Shown: positions 52,046 through 59,050 of the stretch, one piece after another
Numbering within the stretch: position 1 is the stretch's first letter
Layout of the letters: the number at the start of each line of letters is the position of its first letter
NCBI RefSeq assembly: GCF_013372285.1
Contig: NZ_CP054301.1
Span: 1,908,001 to 1,972,000, forward strand
Reading direction: 5' to 3'
Length of the DNA stretch: 64,000 bases
DNA from: Marinomonas primoryensis
GTDB lineage: Bacteria; Pseudomonadota; Gammaproteobacteria; Pseudomonadales; Marinomonadaceae
Made by a program: the position numbers and the translations under genes
The notes under the pieces: model-generated
Seen by the model: the letters and a program-made list of their open reading frames with translations, nothing else
What the model was told of the DNA's origin: nothing
The model's database searches: none

Positions 52046-53959
52046 ATGAGTCTATTGTCGTTAGAACAGATTAGTGTTGCTTTTGGGCATAACCCACTGC
52101 TGTCAAAAATTAGTTTTTCAGCGGACGCTGGCGAACGTGTTGCTATTATCGGCCGTAATGGCGCAGGTAAATCCACTTTATTGAAAGTCATCTCTGGTGA
52201 GCAAGTTGCCGACGAAGGCATGGTTCGCATCGAAGGGGGGATGAAAGTCGCACAGCTTCCACAAGAGCTGCCAGCGGCCAATGAAAAAACGGTTCGTGAA
52301 GTCGTGAGTGAAGGCGCAGGCCAAGCCCATACTTTGATGGCACGTTATTTTAAATTATTAGAAGATTTCGAGAATGATCATTCAAATGAACTAGGTGACA
52401 TTCAAACCGAGCTAGACAAAATTCAAGGCTGGGATCTTGAGCAGCGAGTGAATCACATGATTCAACGTTTGGCTCTTCCTGCTGATAAGTTGATGTCGGA
52501 GTTGTCAGGTGGTTGGCGTCGTCGTGTTATTTTGGCGCAAGCGTTAATTTCTAATCCTGATGTACTGCTGCTAGACGAACCAACAAACCATTTGGATGTT
52601 CCTACGATCGAATGGATGGAGCAACAGCTTCAACAATTTCGTGGTTTGATTCTCTTTATTACCCATGACCGTCGTTTTCTTGAAAAGCTGGCCAATCGTA
52701 TTATTGAGTTAGATCGCGGTAACTTAATTTCATTTAGCGGCAGCATTCATGCGTTTTTAGCCTTCAAAGAAAAAATGTTGGAAGAAGAAGAGCGTGCAAA
52801 TGCATTGTTTGACAAGCGCTTAGCAGAAGAAGAAGTGTGGATTCGTCAAGGTATCAAAGCTCGTCGTACTCGTAACGAAGGTCGAGTTCGTGCTTTGGAG
52901 GCATTGCGAGATGAACGTTCTGAGCGCATTGGTCGTCAAGGTAATGCGAAAATGGCGATTGAGACCAAAGATAAATCCGGCAAGCTAGTCGCCGAATTCA
53001 CCCAAGTGAGCCACTCTTTTGATGACAAAGTCATTTTGCAGCCTATGGATCTGGTTGTTTCTCGTGGTGATCGCATTGGACTGATTGGTCCGAATGGTTG
53101 TGGTAAGAGTACTTTCCTGAAAATTCTCTTAGGAAACTTAGAGCCTTCTTCCGGTACGGTTCACCAAGGTACCAAATTAAACATCGCTTACTTTGACCAA
53201 TTGCGCGAACAGTTAGACCCAGAACAAACCGTGGCGGAAAACGTTGGTGAAGGCAAAGATGTTATTGAAATTAATGGCCAAAACAAACACGTTATTGGTT
53301 ATCTTGGTGACTTCCTTTTCCCACCAGAGCGAGCACGTACTCCAGTAAAAGCCTTGTCTGGTGGTGAACGAAATCGCGTGTTGTTGGCGAAATTATTTAC
53401 TCGTCCAGCCAATCTTTTGATAATGGATGAGCCGACCAACGACCTTGATGTAGAAACATTGGAACTGCTCGAAGAGCTGCTAATGAACTACGATGGCACC
53501 TTGTTATTGGTAAGTCATGACCGTGCTTTCCTTGATAACGTTGTCACAAGCGTGATTGCGTTTGAAGGCGAAGGCAAAGTCAAAGAATACGTCGGCGGCT
53601 ATCAAGACTGGATTCGCCAAGGTGGTAAATTCCCAACGGAATCGACGTCTCAGACTAACGATGAGCCAACCAAAAAAGAAAAAGCCAAGCTAGAGGCAAA
53701 GAAAGAAGCCGCGCCAGCGGTTAAGCCCAAAGCCAAGCTAAGCTATAAACTGCAGCGTGAATTTGAAAACATGCCAGAAGCCATTGCTACGTTGGAACGA
53801 GACATTGCGTCTCTTCATGTTACAACAAGCGCAGCGGATTTCTATTCAGGTGATGCAGAACAAGTGCAAAAAACATTGTCGAAAGTATCACACAAAGAAC
53901 ATGAGCTTGAAACAACGATGGAGCGTTGGCTTGAGCTTGAAGAAATGAAAAACGGGTAA
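52046..53959 (+). CDS. uup: ABC-F family ATPase Uup
   Basis: A 637-residue soluble protein with two ABC domains and no membrane part. Walker A motifs are GRNGAGKST and GPNGCGKST, signatures LSGGWRRRVILAQAL and LSGGERNRVLLAKLF, and Walker B motifs LLLDEPTNHLD and LIMDEPTNDLD. The interdomain linker is rich in charged residues. The C-terminal extension (about 545-637) is the Uup-specific coiled coil that binds nucleic acid. ABC-F proteins act on ribosomes; Uup also affects precise transposon excision. It is followed 3 bp later by the DUF2760 gene. Confidence 0.95.
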   Translation: MSLLSLEQISVAFGHNPLLSKISFSADAGERVAIIGRNGAGKSTLLKVISGEQVADEGMVRIEGGMKVAQLPQELPAANEKTVREVVSEGAGQAHTLMARYFKLLEDFENDHSNELGDIQTELDKIQGWDLEQRVNHMIQRLALPADKLMSELSGGWRRRVILAQALISNPDVLLLDEPTNHLDVPTIEWMEQQLQQFRGLILFITHDRRFLEKLANRIIELDRGNLISFSGSIHAFLAFKEKMLEEEERANALFDKRLAEEEVWIRQGIKARRTRNEGRVRALEALRDERSERIGRQGNAKMAIETKDKSGKLVAEFTQVSHSFDDKVILQPMDLVVSRGDRIGLIGPNGCGKSTFLKILLGNLEPSSGTVHQGTKLNIAYFDQLREQLDPEQTVAENVGEGKDVIEINGQNKHVIGYLGDFLFPPERARTPVKALSGGERNRVLLAKLFTRPANLLIMDEPTNDLDVETLELLEELLMNYDGTLLLVSHDRAFLDNVVTSVIAFEGEGKVKEYVGGYQDWIRQGGKFPTESTSQTNDEPTKKEKAKLEAKKEAAPAVKPKAKLSYKLQREFENMPEAIATLERDIASLHVTTSAADFYSGDAEQVQKTLSKVSHKEHELETTMERWLELEEMKNG

Positions 53960-53962
53960 TTT

Positions 53963-54556
53963 ATGACGCAGAAAATAAAAGCAGTTTCTTTTGTGCCACG
54001 TTTCTTTGGTGCCTTCGGTCAGTTTTTCAAATACATGGGGAGCGGCGATTATGCCGCTCGCTGTCAGCAAGCGAATAAAGGCGAACTCTTCGCTTTTGAA
54101 GCTGAACCAACGGTCATTACTGAAACAGTAGAAGTGATTCGTGAAATTGAAGTGATGGCGCCAGCTTTGGATACGGTTAACGAAGACGGTGCACACCAAT
54201 TACTGCTGCTTTTACAACAAGAAGCGCGTTTCATCGACTTCCTTCAAGAAAGCATTGATGATTATGCGGATGCAGATGTTGGCGCGGCAGCACGCCAAAT
54301 TCATGCGGGTTGCTCTAAAGTATTGACGCAGCACTTTACCATCGAAGTGGTGAATTCCGCGGCAGAAAACAGCCGAATTGAGATACCAGCCGATTACGAT
54401 GCTAAGCAGATTAAATTGGAAGGCCGAGTGGAGGGCGCTGGTCCTTATACCGGTACTTTGATTCATCCTGGTTGGAAAATCACAGACACACGTTTACCGA
54501 AAGTGACAAACACCGAAAGCCTAACTATTTTGGCGCCAGCCGAAGTCGAGGTATAA
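53963..54556 (+). CDS. DUF2760-domain protein
   Basis: A 197-residue protein of unknown function. The N-terminal SFVPRFFGAFGQFF is weakly hydrophobic. The C-terminal ~130 residues hold the DUF2760 pattern (LLLLQQEARFIDFLQESIDDY, then DYDAKQIKLEGRVEGAGPYTG and LIHPGWKI). DUF2760 genes are often found beside Hsp70-like genes, and here two such genes follow at spacings of 3 bp. A chaperone-cofactor role is plausible but unproven. Confidence 0.85.
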   Translation: MTQKIKAVSFVPRFFGAFGQFFKYMGSGDYAARCQQANKGELFAFEAEPTVITETVEVIREIEVMAPALDTVNEDGAHQLLLLLQQEARFIDFLQESIDDYADADVGAAARQIHAGCSKVLTQHFTIEVVNSAAENSRIEIPADYDAKQIKLEGRVEGAGPYTGTLIHPGWKITDTRLPKVTNTESLTILAPAEVEV

Positions 54557-54559
54557 CCC

Positions 54560-56311
54560 ATGAGCGACTACTTTATTGGTATCGATTTAGGTACCACGCA
54601 TTCTGCTGTCTATTATTCCCAGTCGGGTCAATCCCAAGCAGGGCGTATTCAACAACTGGCGATCCCGCAATTTATCGCGGCTGGCCAAGTCGATTCTCGT
54701 CCTTTATTACCTTCTTTTATTTACTTTCCTCATGACACTGAATTCTTAGAAAGTGACTTACTGTTGCCGTGGGGAAAAGCCCATTCGATTGTGGGCCAAT
54801 TAGCACGTGAGTTGGGGACTAAGTCGTCTGGTCGTTTAGTACAAAGTGCAAAAAGTTGGTTGTGTCATTCTCGTGTTGGCGCGGATGAAAACGTACTTCC
54901 TGTCGATGCGCTTGAAGAAGTTGAAAAAATCTCTCCTGCTGCTGTGACTGAAATCTTGTTAGCGCACCTAGTAAATGCTTGGAAAGTTTCTTTTCCAAAT
55001 GCGCCTATTACAGAGCAAAACGTTGTCATTACCGTGCCTGCGTCATTTGACCCTGCAGCTCGTGCGATTACCGAGCAATCAGCAGAACGAGTCGGCTTAC
55101 GAGCACGCTTGATAGAAGAACCGCTGGCCGCGTTTTATGCGTGGCTGAGTGACCAAAAAAATTGGACGGAAAACTTAACCGTTAACGAACATATTTTAGT
55201 GGTCGATGTGGGGGGTGGAACCACAGATTTGTCTTTGATCCAAGCCGTTGAGAAAAATGACGCATTAGGTCTAGAGCGCGTAGCGGTTGGTCGTCACATA
55301 CTATTGGGTGGCGACAACATGGACATGACTTTAACCTATCATTTGGCGGCTCAACTTGCGCAAAAAGGTACTAACCTTGAACCTTGGCAGATCACCGGCT
55401 TAACCCAAGCCTGTCGTGAAGCCAAAGAGCGTTTGTTGTCTAATCCAGATATTGCTGAAACCAGTGTCGTCGTACCGAGTCGCGGTCGCAGCTTGTTTAA
55501 TAACAGTGTCAAAGCCACGTTAACCCAAGCCGATGTTCAGCAATTGTTGATTGATGGTTTCTTTCCTCAAGTACAGTTAGGTGAGCAAGCTCATAAAGTC
55601 GCTCGTAGTGGTTTTAGCACCATCAATTTAGATTATGAAGGCGATCCAGCCATCACTCGACACATTAGTGAGTTTTTATCTCGACACGATGTGAAGCCGA
55701 GTAAAATATTACTGAACGGCGGCGTGTTCAATGCGACGGTGATACGCAATACACTAGAGGCTCGCTTACAAAGCCTATTAGGTGGCATGCCGTTAACGAT
55801 GTTGACACCTTCTCACTTAGATTATGCAGTGGCCAAAGGCGCAACCTATTACGCCAAAGTTCAAGCGGAAGGCGGCGTTAAGGTCAAAAGCGGATTAGCG
55901 TCGAATTACTACATTGGTGTTGCCAGTCCAATGCCCGCGATTCCTGGTATGGCGCCGCCGGTTGATGCTATTTGCGTCGCACCATTTGGTTTAGAAGAGG
56001 GTTCAGAGGAGCAGATGCTACCCAATGAATTCTCTCTTGTGGTCGGTGAAAGCGTTATATTTCGTTTTTTCCAATCCAAACACAATGAAGCGGATGCCGT
56101 GGGTAAAGTCGTGTCTGCTTTCGCTTTGGGTCAGTTGAATGAACTGAGCCCTTTGTCAGTTCGTTTGGACGCTGGACATTATCAAGCAGGGGAAATGGTG
56201 CGTATTTATCTAACCGCTCGTGTTACTGAGTTGGGCTTATTGTTATTGCAAGCGCACGACACACAGTCTGATTTAAACTGGACCATTGAGTTTCAAGTTA
56301 GAGAGGTCTAA
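54560..56311 (+). CDS. Hsp70-family protein, 583 residues
   Basis: A DnaK-superfamily ATPase. The actin-like ATP site shows IGIDLGTTHSAVYY (phosphate 1), LVVDVGGGTTDLSL (phosphate 2) and ILLNGGVFNATVIRNTLEARL (adenosine). The region after about residue 400 does not look like the classical DnaK peptide-binding domain, and there is no EEVD-type tail. No dnaJ or grpE gene is near. It lies 3 bp after the DUF2760 gene and 3 bp before a second Hsp70-like gene, implying one transcript and a shared role. Confidence 0.9.
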   Translation: MSDYFIGIDLGTTHSAVYYSQSGQSQAGRIQQLAIPQFIAAGQVDSRPLLPSFIYFPHDTEFLESDLLLPWGKAHSIVGQLARELGTKSSGRLVQSAKSWLCHSRVGADENVLPVDALEEVEKISPAAVTEILLAHLVNAWKVSFPNAPITEQNVVITVPASFDPAARAITEQSAERVGLRARLIEEPLAAFYAWLSDQKNWTENLTVNEHILVVDVGGGTTDLSLIQAVEKNDALGLERVAVGRHILLGGDNMDMTLTYHLAAQLAQKGTNLEPWQITGLTQACREAKERLLSNPDIAETSVVVPSRGRSLFNNSVKATLTQADVQQLLIDGFFPQVQLGEQAHKVARSGFSTINLDYEGDPAITRHISEFLSRHDVKPSKILLNGGVFNATVIRNTLEARLQSLLGGMPLTMLTPSHLDYAVAKGATYYAKVQAEGGVKVKSGLASNYYIGVASPMPAIPGMAPPVDAICVAPFGLEEGSEEQMLPNEFSLVVGESVIFRFFQSKHNEADAVGKVVSAFALGQLNELSPLSVRLDAGHYQAGEMVRIYLTARVTELGLLLLQAHDTQSDLNWTIEFQVREV

Positions 56312-56314
56312 ATC

Positions 56315-59050
56315 ATGGCGCAACCAGCTTTTGGCTCTTCTTATCGAGTGGGAATTGATTTAGGGACGACGAACTGTGTCGTTTCTTACCTTTCATCGAC
56401 GTGTCTGGACTCTGATCGAAATACACCGACACTATTGCCTATCCCTCAAGTAATGAGCGATGGCTCTGTGCAGGAATTTGATTATTTGCCGAGTGCAATT
56501 TACCTGCTGGCCAACGATGAGATAGGGAAGATTGTTCCTATTTTACCTTGGCGTCATCATGATACAGAATGTGTCGTTGGCATGGGCGCATTAGCCTTAG
56601 GCCAACGCCGAACAGGGCAATTAGTACAGAGTGCAAAAAGCTGGTTGAGTCACCGACAAGTCGATCGTCGCTCAGCCATTCTTCCCTGGGGAAGTGATTC
56701 GGTAAAAAAGCTCAGTCCATTACAAGCCAGTAAGTTACTTCTTTTACACATTAGGCAAAGCTGGAATCATCGTTTTCCTGACGCTCTTTTAGAGTTGCAA
56801 ACCGTCGCTTTAACCTTGCCGGCATCCTTTGACGAAGAAGCACGTGCGCTGACGTTAGAAGCCGCTAAATTGGCTGGTTTAGAAGACCTTTATCTATTAG
56901 AAGAACCGCAAGCAGCTTGCTATCACTACATCAGTGACGATGAAAAGCTAGCGTCTTTGGCTGATAAGAAAATGCTGTTAGTGGTTGATATTGGAGGAGG
57001 CACAAGTGACTTTAGTTTGGTTGCCATACGCTCTTCTGCGAAAACCAATAAACAAGGTGCGGCGATTTCATTAAAGCGCATCGCAGTCGGTGAGCATTTA
57101 TTGCTTGGTGGCGATAATCTTGATCAAGCTTTAGCGTTTCAGCTCGACCCCAAACAAATTTCGGCTTTATCCGTGTCTCGTCTCGCCGCGTTGGTTCAGC
57201 AAACGCGTCAAGCTAAAGAAAATCTATTGGGCGCTAATGCGCCAGAATCCTTGAGTATTACGGTATTGGGCGGCGGCAGTCGTCTGATTGGCGGCTCACA
57301 GAAATTTGATGTTTCAAGAAACACATTATTAGAGCAAATGAGTACGGGGTTCTTTCCTCTTGTGGAAGCGAATGATCCGGTACAAAAAAACGCTTACGCT
57401 ATGCATACGTTAGGTTTGCCGTACGAATCTGATCCTGCGTTCACGCGACATTTAGCGGTATTTTTGCAACAACACAAAGCCGCCATTGAAATGGCGACTG
57501 GATCGACTATGCCAGATGCCGTGTTGTTTAACGGCGGGTTGTTTAATAGCCCAGTGTTAAAAGCCCGTTTGCTGGCGCAATTAAATGCTTGGTCAAATAC
57601 TCCGATATTAGCCTGCTCTGCCGATGAACCAAACGAGGCGGTTGCAAAAGGTGCGGCGATGTACTTAAACGCCTTGGCGGGAGAAAGTGCACGAATTGAA
57701 AGTGGCGTGGCGCACAGCTTGTATTTGAAACTTGGGGATGATCAATTTGTTGGTATTTTGCCCAAAGACACGCTAAAAGGTGAAACGCTGCTTTTAGAGC
57801 AAGATTTTTTTGTCACATTGGGTCAACAAGTTCAATTTCCTTTGTATCGTTCTGATGATCATCTTGAATGTGTCGTGGGAGAATTGCGAAAAGAAAATGG
57901 CCTACATTACATCTCCAATTTAGCAACAGAATTAGACAGTTCAGAAGAAAATACAGAGTTATCTGTTTCAATGTCGGTGCAAATGACCGAAGTGGGTGTG
58001 CTTCAAGTTCTTTTAAATGGTAATGACACACGCGATCAGTGGCGCTTGGACTTTTCCACCTCTAAGCAGGACCCAAATAACGACTCGGATTCTGATGCAT
58101 TATTACATTCCAATATGGGGCAAGCAGAAGAGCATCTGACGCACTGCTTTTCTGGTGCGGGACAAAAACAGAACCCTGATTTAGTGAAAGCGCTCAAGCA
58201 AGACTTAGATCAATTATTAGGCAAGCGCGATGATTGGAATCTGGCGACATCTCGTCGCTTGGTCGATAAATTGCTGAGTTTAAAATCCGGTCGCCTGAAA
58301 AGTGCCCAGCATGAACGTCAATGGTTGCAGTTGATTGGTTATTGTTTACGCCCAGGCTACGGCGCCGCAGACGATTTGTTGCGCGTTCAGCAAGTGATTA
58401 ATACCACTAAAGCGGGTACCCAGTTTGATAGCGCGCCAGTCTGGGGGCAATATTGGACCTTGTATCGCCGTATTGCAGGCGGTATGTCCATTGATCAGCA
58501 GCACGTATTGTTTAAGCAATTTAGTCAATATTACTCGCCAACCGGACAACGCTCCCGAGATAAAATAAAGGCGCTGACGACCAAGTCCAGTGACGATCTA
58601 ATTCGCCTTGTGGGCGCGTTAGAAGCGGTGCCGCACGAAGACAAAATCATTGTGGTGGATTGGCTGATAAAGCGTCTACAGAAAACCTCAGAGCCCGATA
58701 CGGCGTGGTGGACAGTGGGACGAATTGCTTCCCGTCATTTGTTGTCAGGTAAACAAGAACTGCGGCTTTCAGAAGGGCGCCTTTTTCCGATTCTTGATTT
58801 TGCATTGAAAGAGGATTGGAAGAAACGTAAGCAGGCAGGCCTCGCTGCGGTTCTGATGAGCCAAGTCAGTGTGGATGAATCAGAAAAACTAAAAGGCTAC
58901 CGTAAAAAAATCGCCAACAAACTTAAAAAAGACAAATGCCCAACCCAATGGGTTGAGCGTTTAGAAAGCCAAATAGAAATCAACGGCGACGAGTTAAACG
59001 CATTGGTAGGGGAAAGCCTGCCAATTGGGCTGCGATTATCACTGGTTTAA
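56315..59050 (+). CDS. Large Hsp70-family protein with C-terminal DUF3731-like region
   Basis: A 911-residue protein. The N-terminal ~450 residues are an Hsp70 ATPase: VGIDLGTTNCVVSYL, VVDIGGGTSDFSLV and AVLFNGGLFNSPVLKARLL. A beta-rich section follows. The last ~330 residues are helical and basic (LLGKRDDWNLATSRRLVDKLL onward) and fit what I know of DUF3731. It resembles the preceding gene over the ATPase part, suggesting an old duplication plus a fused helical domain. It ends 4 bp from the convergent lipase gene with no terminator visible between. Confidence 0.88.
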   Translation: MAQPAFGSSYRVGIDLGTTNCVVSYLSSTCLDSDRNTPTLLPIPQVMSDGSVQEFDYLPSAIYLLANDEIGKIVPILPWRHHDTECVVGMGALALGQRRTGQLVQSAKSWLSHRQVDRRSAILPWGSDSVKKLSPLQASKLLLLHIRQSWNHRFPDALLELQTVALTLPASFDEEARALTLEAAKLAGLEDLYLLEEPQAACYHYISDDEKLASLADKKMLLVVDIGGGTSDFSLVAIRSSAKTNKQGAAISLKRIAVGEHLLLGGDNLDQALAFQLDPKQISALSVSRLAALVQQTRQAKENLLGANAPESLSITVLGGGSRLIGGSQKFDVSRNTLLEQMSTGFFPLVEANDPVQKNAYAMHTLGLPYESDPAFTRHLAVFLQQHKAAIEMATGSTMPDAVLFNGGLFNSPVLKARLLAQLNAWSNTPILACSADEPNEAVAKGAAMYLNALAGESARIESGVAHSLYLKLGDDQFVGILPKDTLKGETLLLEQDFFVTLGQQVQFPLYRSDDHLECVVGELRKENGLHYISNLATELDSSEENTELSVSMSVQMTEVGVLQVLLNGNDTRDQWRLDFSTSKQDPNNDSDSDALLHSNMGQAEEHLTHCFSGAGQKQNPDLVKALKQDLDQLLGKRDDWNLATSRRLVDKLLSLKSGRLKSAQHERQWLQLIGYCLRPGYGAADDLLRVQQVINTTKAGTQFDSAPVWGQYWTLYRRIAGGMSIDQQHVLFKQFSQYYSPTGQRSRDKIKALTTKSSDDLIRLVGALEAVPHEDKIIVVDWLIKRLQKTSEPDTAWWTVGRIASRHLLSGKQELRLSEGRLFPILDFALKEDWKKRKQAGLAAVLMSQVSVDESEKLKGYRKKIANKLKKDKCPTQWVERLESQIEINGDELNALVGESLPIGLRLSLV

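Follow-up and report, generated by a model that had tools for sequence, protein, structure and literature searches.

The genes for DUF2760, HspA and HspB form a conserved three-gene unit that occurs in many proteobacteria and has been little studied, and we put it at about an even chance that their products constitute a membrane-tethered tandem-Hsp70 ATPase machine in which DUF2760 recruits and HspB is the partner motor. A two-Hsp70 machine tethered to the membrane in this way explains why the trio is constant and why its catalytic sites are conserved, and it accounts for the beta domains and for the N-termini of DUF2760, while the uup gene that precedes the unit here is a neighbour only. The unit was analysed in a window of 64,000 nucleotides, meaning the whole stretch of DNA presented, from Marinomonas primoryensis, whose genome is a single 4.07-Mb contig. 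A full-text literature search, whose coverage excludes many subscription journals, returned no paper on DUF2760, DUF3731, PF10816 or PF12531, and three plasmid records with gene tables use only the names “DUF2760 domain-containing protein” and “Hsp70 family protein”.

In the window, four ORFs on the + strand follow one another in the order uup, DUF2760, HspA and HspB with a gap of 3 bp each, so that the ORF coordinates agree with the first-pass annotation in order, strand and all three gaps. The uup-type ABC-F ATPase (52046..53959, 637 aa) matches the NCBIfam Uup model over its full length. The DUF2760 protein, a proposed membrane adaptor (53963..54556, 197 aa), matches Pfam PF10816 at residues 75–196 with an E value of 1.6e-48 and 164.1 bits against a gathering cut-off of 25, and its conserved domain, delimited by PF10816 and the family sequences, lies at 54185..54550. 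HspA (Hsp70-A; 54560..56311, 583 aa) reads, from its sequence, as a lidless protein with an ATPase domain and a beta domain; HspB (Hsp70-B; 56315..59050, 911 aa) has an ATPase domain, a beta domain and a C-terminal helical DUF3731. PF00012 was found in both Hsp70s, with E values of 3.6e-20 (HspA) and 1.1e-15 (HspB). The large helical domain that the first reading had seen fused to the second Hsp70 corresponds to PF12531/DUF3731 at residues 663–908 (58301..59038; E 1.2e-70, 238.7 bits, gathering cut-off 25), which is helical in the AlphaFold2 model and for which the Pfam description is “DNA-K related protein”; a search of PDB sequences with the DUF3731 profile gave only two matches, with E values of 0.62 and 0.63. 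As that reading had also stated, neither DnaJ nor GrpE is encoded among the ORFs of the cluster.

The first-pass annotation had proposed a comparison of DUF2760 neighbourhoods across proteobacteria as a check on its grouping of uup with these genes. This comparison covered 49 neighbourhoods plus the window (50 loci) and 80 more, some Marinomonas genomes being in both sets; HspA follows DUF2760 in all 130 loci (50/50 and 80/80), and uup is found beside the unit in Marinomonas only. HspB lies in the same stretch as DUF2760 in 110 of the 130 loci (45/50 and 65/80), a few of these HspB copies being distant, disrupted or truncated where a contig ends. The remaining 20 loci have no HspB in the stretch, some of them at a contig edge, and eight of the nine such genomes that were checked carry DUF3731 elsewhere. 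HspB/DUF3731 is absent from the genomes G339 and G386, the DUF2760 locus of the latter ending at a contig edge, and HspA may therefore work without HspB. In an even sample of 274 genomes of the class, DUF2760 occurs in 10 and DUF3731 in 11, with both in 10, DUF2760 only in none and DUF3731 only in one (Fisher p 2e-17, uncorrected for relatedness); in a sample of 293 genomes of the order, the corresponding numbers are 43 and 41, with both in 41 and DUF3731 only in none, the two DUF2760-only genomes being G339 and G386. Once L199 and L206 are set aside for want of a usable gene table, 128 loci remain, and in 88 of these the start of HspA overlaps the end of DUF2760 by 4 bp, as is typical of translational coupling. 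The idea of a dedicated chaperone system thus gains support, as a chaperone-like ATPase system, from the conservation of DUF2760, HspA and HspB together.

The unit is distributed over Gamma- and Betaproteobacteria, Bradyrhizobium plasmids (Alphaproteobacteria) and one MAG labelled Myxococcales. Two conjugative Bradyrhizobium plasmids carry DUF2760-Hsp70-Hsp70 with no uup annotated in the stretch shown, and on one plasmid copy the module is followed by groES-groEL. Nine loci have a gene for an HtpX-type membrane protease no more than two genes from DUF2760; in seven of them, all from one family, it is divergent, and in two, from Methylococcales, it is on the same strand. One of the nine is named HtpX by NCBIfam. 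The proximity of HtpX in two lineages and of groES-groEL fits a quality-control role but may be due to chance. A gene with HAMP and adenylate/guanylate cyclase domains directly follows HspB on the same strand in eight loci of one family (e.g., L069:3440-5095, the copy from which the domains were read). A sigma-32 promoter score of at least 10/12 was reached in one of 105 upstream stretches compared with about 1.7 in base shuffles, which gives no clear promoter; a score of 9/12 was found in 26 of the 105 compared with 14.2 in shuffles, several of these stretches being near-copies.

The conserved domain of DUF2760 has 24 invariant positions in 64 sequences, and the N-terminus in front of it is of two kinds. 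A script-based division, in which a Kyte-Doolittle value of at least 2.2 over 19 residues was taken as transmembrane-like, assigned a transmembrane-like segment to 44 of 128 copies; the other 84 are less hydrophobic (Kyte-Doolittle at most 1.79), and most of them share, by eye, an aromatic-rich motif of the SFxxRxxxAFGxFF type. In the window, the N-terminal helices of DUF2760 (53990..54076, model residues 10–38) begin with an amphipathic one: the hydrophobic moment of residues 9–26 is 0.52 against a shuffled mean of 0.22, and a fraction of 0.0006 of the shuffles is as high. For three other DUF2760 copies the fractions are 0.032, 0.036 and 0.051, which is weaker evidence; the membrane link proposed for the Marinomonas protein depends on one amphipathic segment. 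Changes between the two kinds of N-terminus number at least three on the HspA tree and two on the HspB tree, both of which carry long-branch warnings. The Marinomonas Hsp70s group mainly with relatives from their order, many of which have the transmembrane type of DUF2760, while DUF2760 of Marinomonas is of the other type; this mismatch may reflect a switch or recombination.

In 11 loci (10 Methylococcales and genome G249), the gene immediately before DUF2760 codes for a protein of about 126 aa with an apparent signal peptide, and this family has no significant Pfam match. In genome G136, one ORF (L055:8490-9605) contains both this family and DUF2760 with a hydrophobic segment between them, and this fusion of an apparently exported domain to DUF2760 across a hydrophobic segment suggests a periplasm–membrane–cytoplasm topology, the signal peptide and topology having been read by eye. 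Confidence in the model of DUF2760 is middling (pLDDT 78.2, pTM 0.53); no structural relative was found at a Foldseek E value of 0.001 or below, the best VIA alignment having a Z of 4.6 over 55 residues, and a search of PDB sequences with the DUF2760 profile gave a single match with an E value of 0.52. Since the model is middling and without a structural relative, the recruiting role that we assign to DUF2760 is a guess.

HspA and HspB are sister-like in sequence, sharing 32.6% identity over 599 aligned positions (271 bits) compared with 84 and 61 bits against the genome's own DnaK. Ten DnaK positions (D8, T11, K70, E171, D194, G196, G197, T199, D201 and K270) are identical in all 127 HspA and all 101 HspB sequences, apart from one HspB row that is gapped at D8 and T11; the catalytic residues of the Hsp70 superfamily nucleotide-binding domain (D8, T11, K70, E171, D194, T199, D201 and K270) are thus present in both proteins. 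Other positions differ: K55 is mostly R, R56 is variable, D231 is replaced by N in every row, and F stands in place of T344 in 99 of the 101 HspB sequences, DnaK positions past K270 not being alignable in HspA. The AlphaFold2 model of HspB, built from 59 sequences (pLDDT 83.1, pTM 0.63), contains a nucleotide-binding domain at residues 8–455 (56336..57679), an eight-stranded, SBD-beta-like domain at residues 469–581 (57719..58057) and only helices from residue 601. In VIA alignments, residues 8–583 of the model superpose on ATP-bound DnaK (4jn4) with a Z of 31.7 and 4.3 Å over 471 residues, and residues 5–582 on BiP (5e84) with a Z of 32.8 and 4.2 Å over 469 residues. Because the ATPase and beta domains superpose together on DnaK and BiP, the peptide-binding sandwich that follows the nucleotide-binding domain is present in the HspB model as a fold. 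HspA aligns with HspB from residue 2 to 578, and by this alignment it would possess the beta domain as well.

The first reading held that neither Hsp70 has a classical peptide-binding half, and this stands in part: the SBD-beta fold is there in the HspB model, but the lid and the hydrophobic linker are missing. HspA ends shortly after the beta domain, and HspB has DUF3731 in place of the canonical SBD-alpha lid. In place of the canonical DVLLL linker, HspA has VRIRGG, VKVKSG or close variants (read by eye in 17 of 118 rows), and HspB has an IGGG/IESG-like segment (read by eye against DnaK in 12 of 78 rows). Both proteins fall short of the NCBIfam cut-offs, with HspA scoring 67.8/64.5 bits and HspB 55/50.6 bits against 648/822.55 bits for DnaK, and 84.4/79.5 bits and 78.3/76.5 bits, respectively, against 620/708.55 bits for HscA.

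In a rival reading, the Hsp70 pair is no folding machine but a regulatory switch or scaffold, driven by ATP and located at the envelope, that acts on a membrane process through DUF2760. The VRIRGG-like segment in HspA, the absence of the lid and the fact that DnaK R167 is not kept as a rule are all in its favour, as are the roles of Hsp70s in Myxococcus described in PMC8265645. However, an SBD-beta-like domain that superposes, together with the nucleotide-binding domain, on ATP-bound DnaK has been kept, and groES-groEL follows the module on one plasmid; we regard a switch or scaffold as unlikely.

Another possibility is that HspA and HspB are accessory Hsp70s which rely on GrpE and the housekeeping J-proteins, and that DUF2760 does no more than localise them. 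Candidate J-proteins are at hand, since five J-domain matches were found in the genome, all outside the cluster, one of them a J-domain and SH3 protein encoded about 6 kb from the module. R167, a J-contact residue of DnaK, is nevertheless missing from most HspA sequences, and only part of the family keeps it; a search for reciprocal retention between HspA and HspB found it never in both partners and in neither in 18 of 47 genus-level states, from which no pattern is drawn. As the DVLLL linker is replaced and R167 is kept only in part, ordinary DnaJ coupling appears less fitting, and this second arrangement is improbable in our estimation. The nearby J-domain protein (436 aa; L219:6249-7559, past the module end and outside the window) has an SH3-like stretch below the Pfam cut-off and, by eye, a hydrophobic segment between the J-domain and this stretch. 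It was rejected as the missing partner because all 39 Marinomonas genomes, including G367, which lacks the module, have a match to it, so that it is not module-specific; in G367, the gene for the J-domain and SH3 protein is located about 0.29 Mb from uup. Another of the genome's proteins, of 192 aa (L221:5412-5990), has a C-terminal J-domain. Besides DnaK, the genome has no other strong PF00012 match, so that no HscA was seen.

The Uup protein of the window scores 871.9 bits end to end against the NCBIfam model NF050005, which is below the cut-off of 900, and two further Uups from Marinomonas reach 870.1 and 872.1 bits; the window protein is the genome's only close match, the next being 38% identical. 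DUF2760 is present in 38 of 39 Marinomonas genomes of an even genus sample, and the order uup-DUF2760-HspA-HspB was found in all 38 and in G442. In each of 22 Marinomonas loci, uup is directly upstream of DUF2760 with a gap of −8 to 32 bp, and such gaps make co-transcription of uup and DUF2760 likely within Marinomonas; the uup of the window probably shares the module transcript while standing outside the conserved module. In the 108 loci from outside Marinomonas, the 4 kb upstream contained no uup in any case; the upstream sequence extends to at least 1 kb in 99 of them and to at least 1.9 kb in 97, so that the rest could hide a uup. The uup count leaves aside weak ABC-ATPase matches further off (36–61 bits) and, in L158, an ABC-F match at a distance of 7 kb. 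In Marinomonas G367, which has no trio, uup keeps the same RND-HlyD flank as in module-bearing genomes, and on its other side is a lipase gene 58% identical to the window lipase that follows HspB. This lipase gene follows HspB in seven of 38 Marinomonas loci, many stretches being too short to tell. Because G367 retains the uup flank and the lipase without the trio, the module behaves as a cassette that is present or absent behind uup, through either gain elsewhere or loss in G367.

The first-pass annotation had suggested that the chaperones work with Uup under translation or DNA-structure stress. Such a functional tie is very improbable: the 3-bp gap in the window and the uup gene directly upstream in every module-bearing Marinomonas examined speak for it, but uup is adjacent in 0 of 108 other loci (nine of them with less than 1 kb upstream), and G367 retains uup without the module. 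The adjacency is genus-wide and thus exceeds the single strain named in the first reading's refuting condition, yet it still speaks against the proposed link to Uup, and uup was rejected as a component of the system. The conjugative plasmids and the Thiodictyon plasmid pTs485 might suggest a mobile cassette for stress or defence, which is equally hard to credit, since PADLOC gave no match for DUF2760 and one weak match per Hsp70, a single-protein query that detects close relatives only found no relative in viral contigs, and of the 39 Marinomonas genomes sampled, 38 have the module in the same place behind uup. On pTs485 (L255:1-17815), DUF2760-HspA lies amid genes annotated as anti-phage and one for a TIR-domain protein, and tblastn found no HspB in this record.

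Compared with known systems, the module Hsp70s resemble DnaK in their catalytic-site residues and in the layout of a nucleotide-binding domain followed by SBD-beta. Unlike the DnaK system with DnaJ and GrpE, the module is without lid and hydrophobic linker, lies far below the DnaK family cut-offs, and consists of two paralogous Hsp70s and DUF2760 with no J-protein or GrpE gene. Hsp110 is an exchange partner that serves Hsp70, and Ssz1 is a lidless Hsp70 of the ribosome-associated complex; both Hsp110 Sse1 and the RAC core with Ssz1 are included in the Foldseek list. The module shares with these pairs two unequal Hsp70-type proteins, one enlarged, and the loss of a lid; unlike them, it is bacterial and has a membrane-type partner, and heterodimer formation and nucleotide exchange are only proposed for it. 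A 454-aa Hsp70-fold protein in the genome, presumably a minor bacterial Hsp70 of the YegD type, is likewise an example of a divergent Hsp70-fold ATPase beside DnaK, but it ends after the ATPase domain, and the module is separate from it. In a study of Myxococcus Hsp70s (PMC8265645), deletion of the Hsp70 SglK is reported to lower social motility, and noncanonical Hsp70s of this genus act in sporulation and oxidation resistance; the same study describes MXAN_5323 as a 925-aa Hsp70 distant from DnaK, which is similar to HspB in being large, near it in length and far from DnaK.

In the membrane-tethered machine that we favour, DUF2760 would use its N-terminal transmembrane or amphipathic helix to sit on the cytoplasmic side of the inner membrane, the less hydrophobic kind presumably attaching as well, and its conserved domain would recruit and possibly stimulate both Hsp70s, replacing a J-protein. 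HspA would be the lidless Hsp70, and HspB, a paralogue with its lid replaced by the helical DUF3731, would form a physical complex with it as the partner motor and divide the labour, perhaps exchanging nucleotide or acting as a holder, as Hsp110 does for Hsp70. As clients we regard inner-membrane proteins, or proteins located at that membrane, as probable. A more specific form, in which the module is a J-protein-free bacterial counterpart of Hsp70/Hsp110, with two coupled motors, one of them bearing a helical DUF3731 arm where the lid would be, and DUF2760 as anchor and activator that switches them on at the inner membrane in the quality control of membrane or translocating proteins, is put forward tentatively and is on balance rather unlikely. 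The bacterial account of Hsp70 is that of DnaK with DnaJ and GrpE, while in this module the linker is altered and a J-protein gene is lacking; should it prove to be a two-motor chaperone tethered to the membrane, it would offer a simple bacterial system for the cooperation of two Hsp70s and for the recruitment of Hsp70 without a J-domain.
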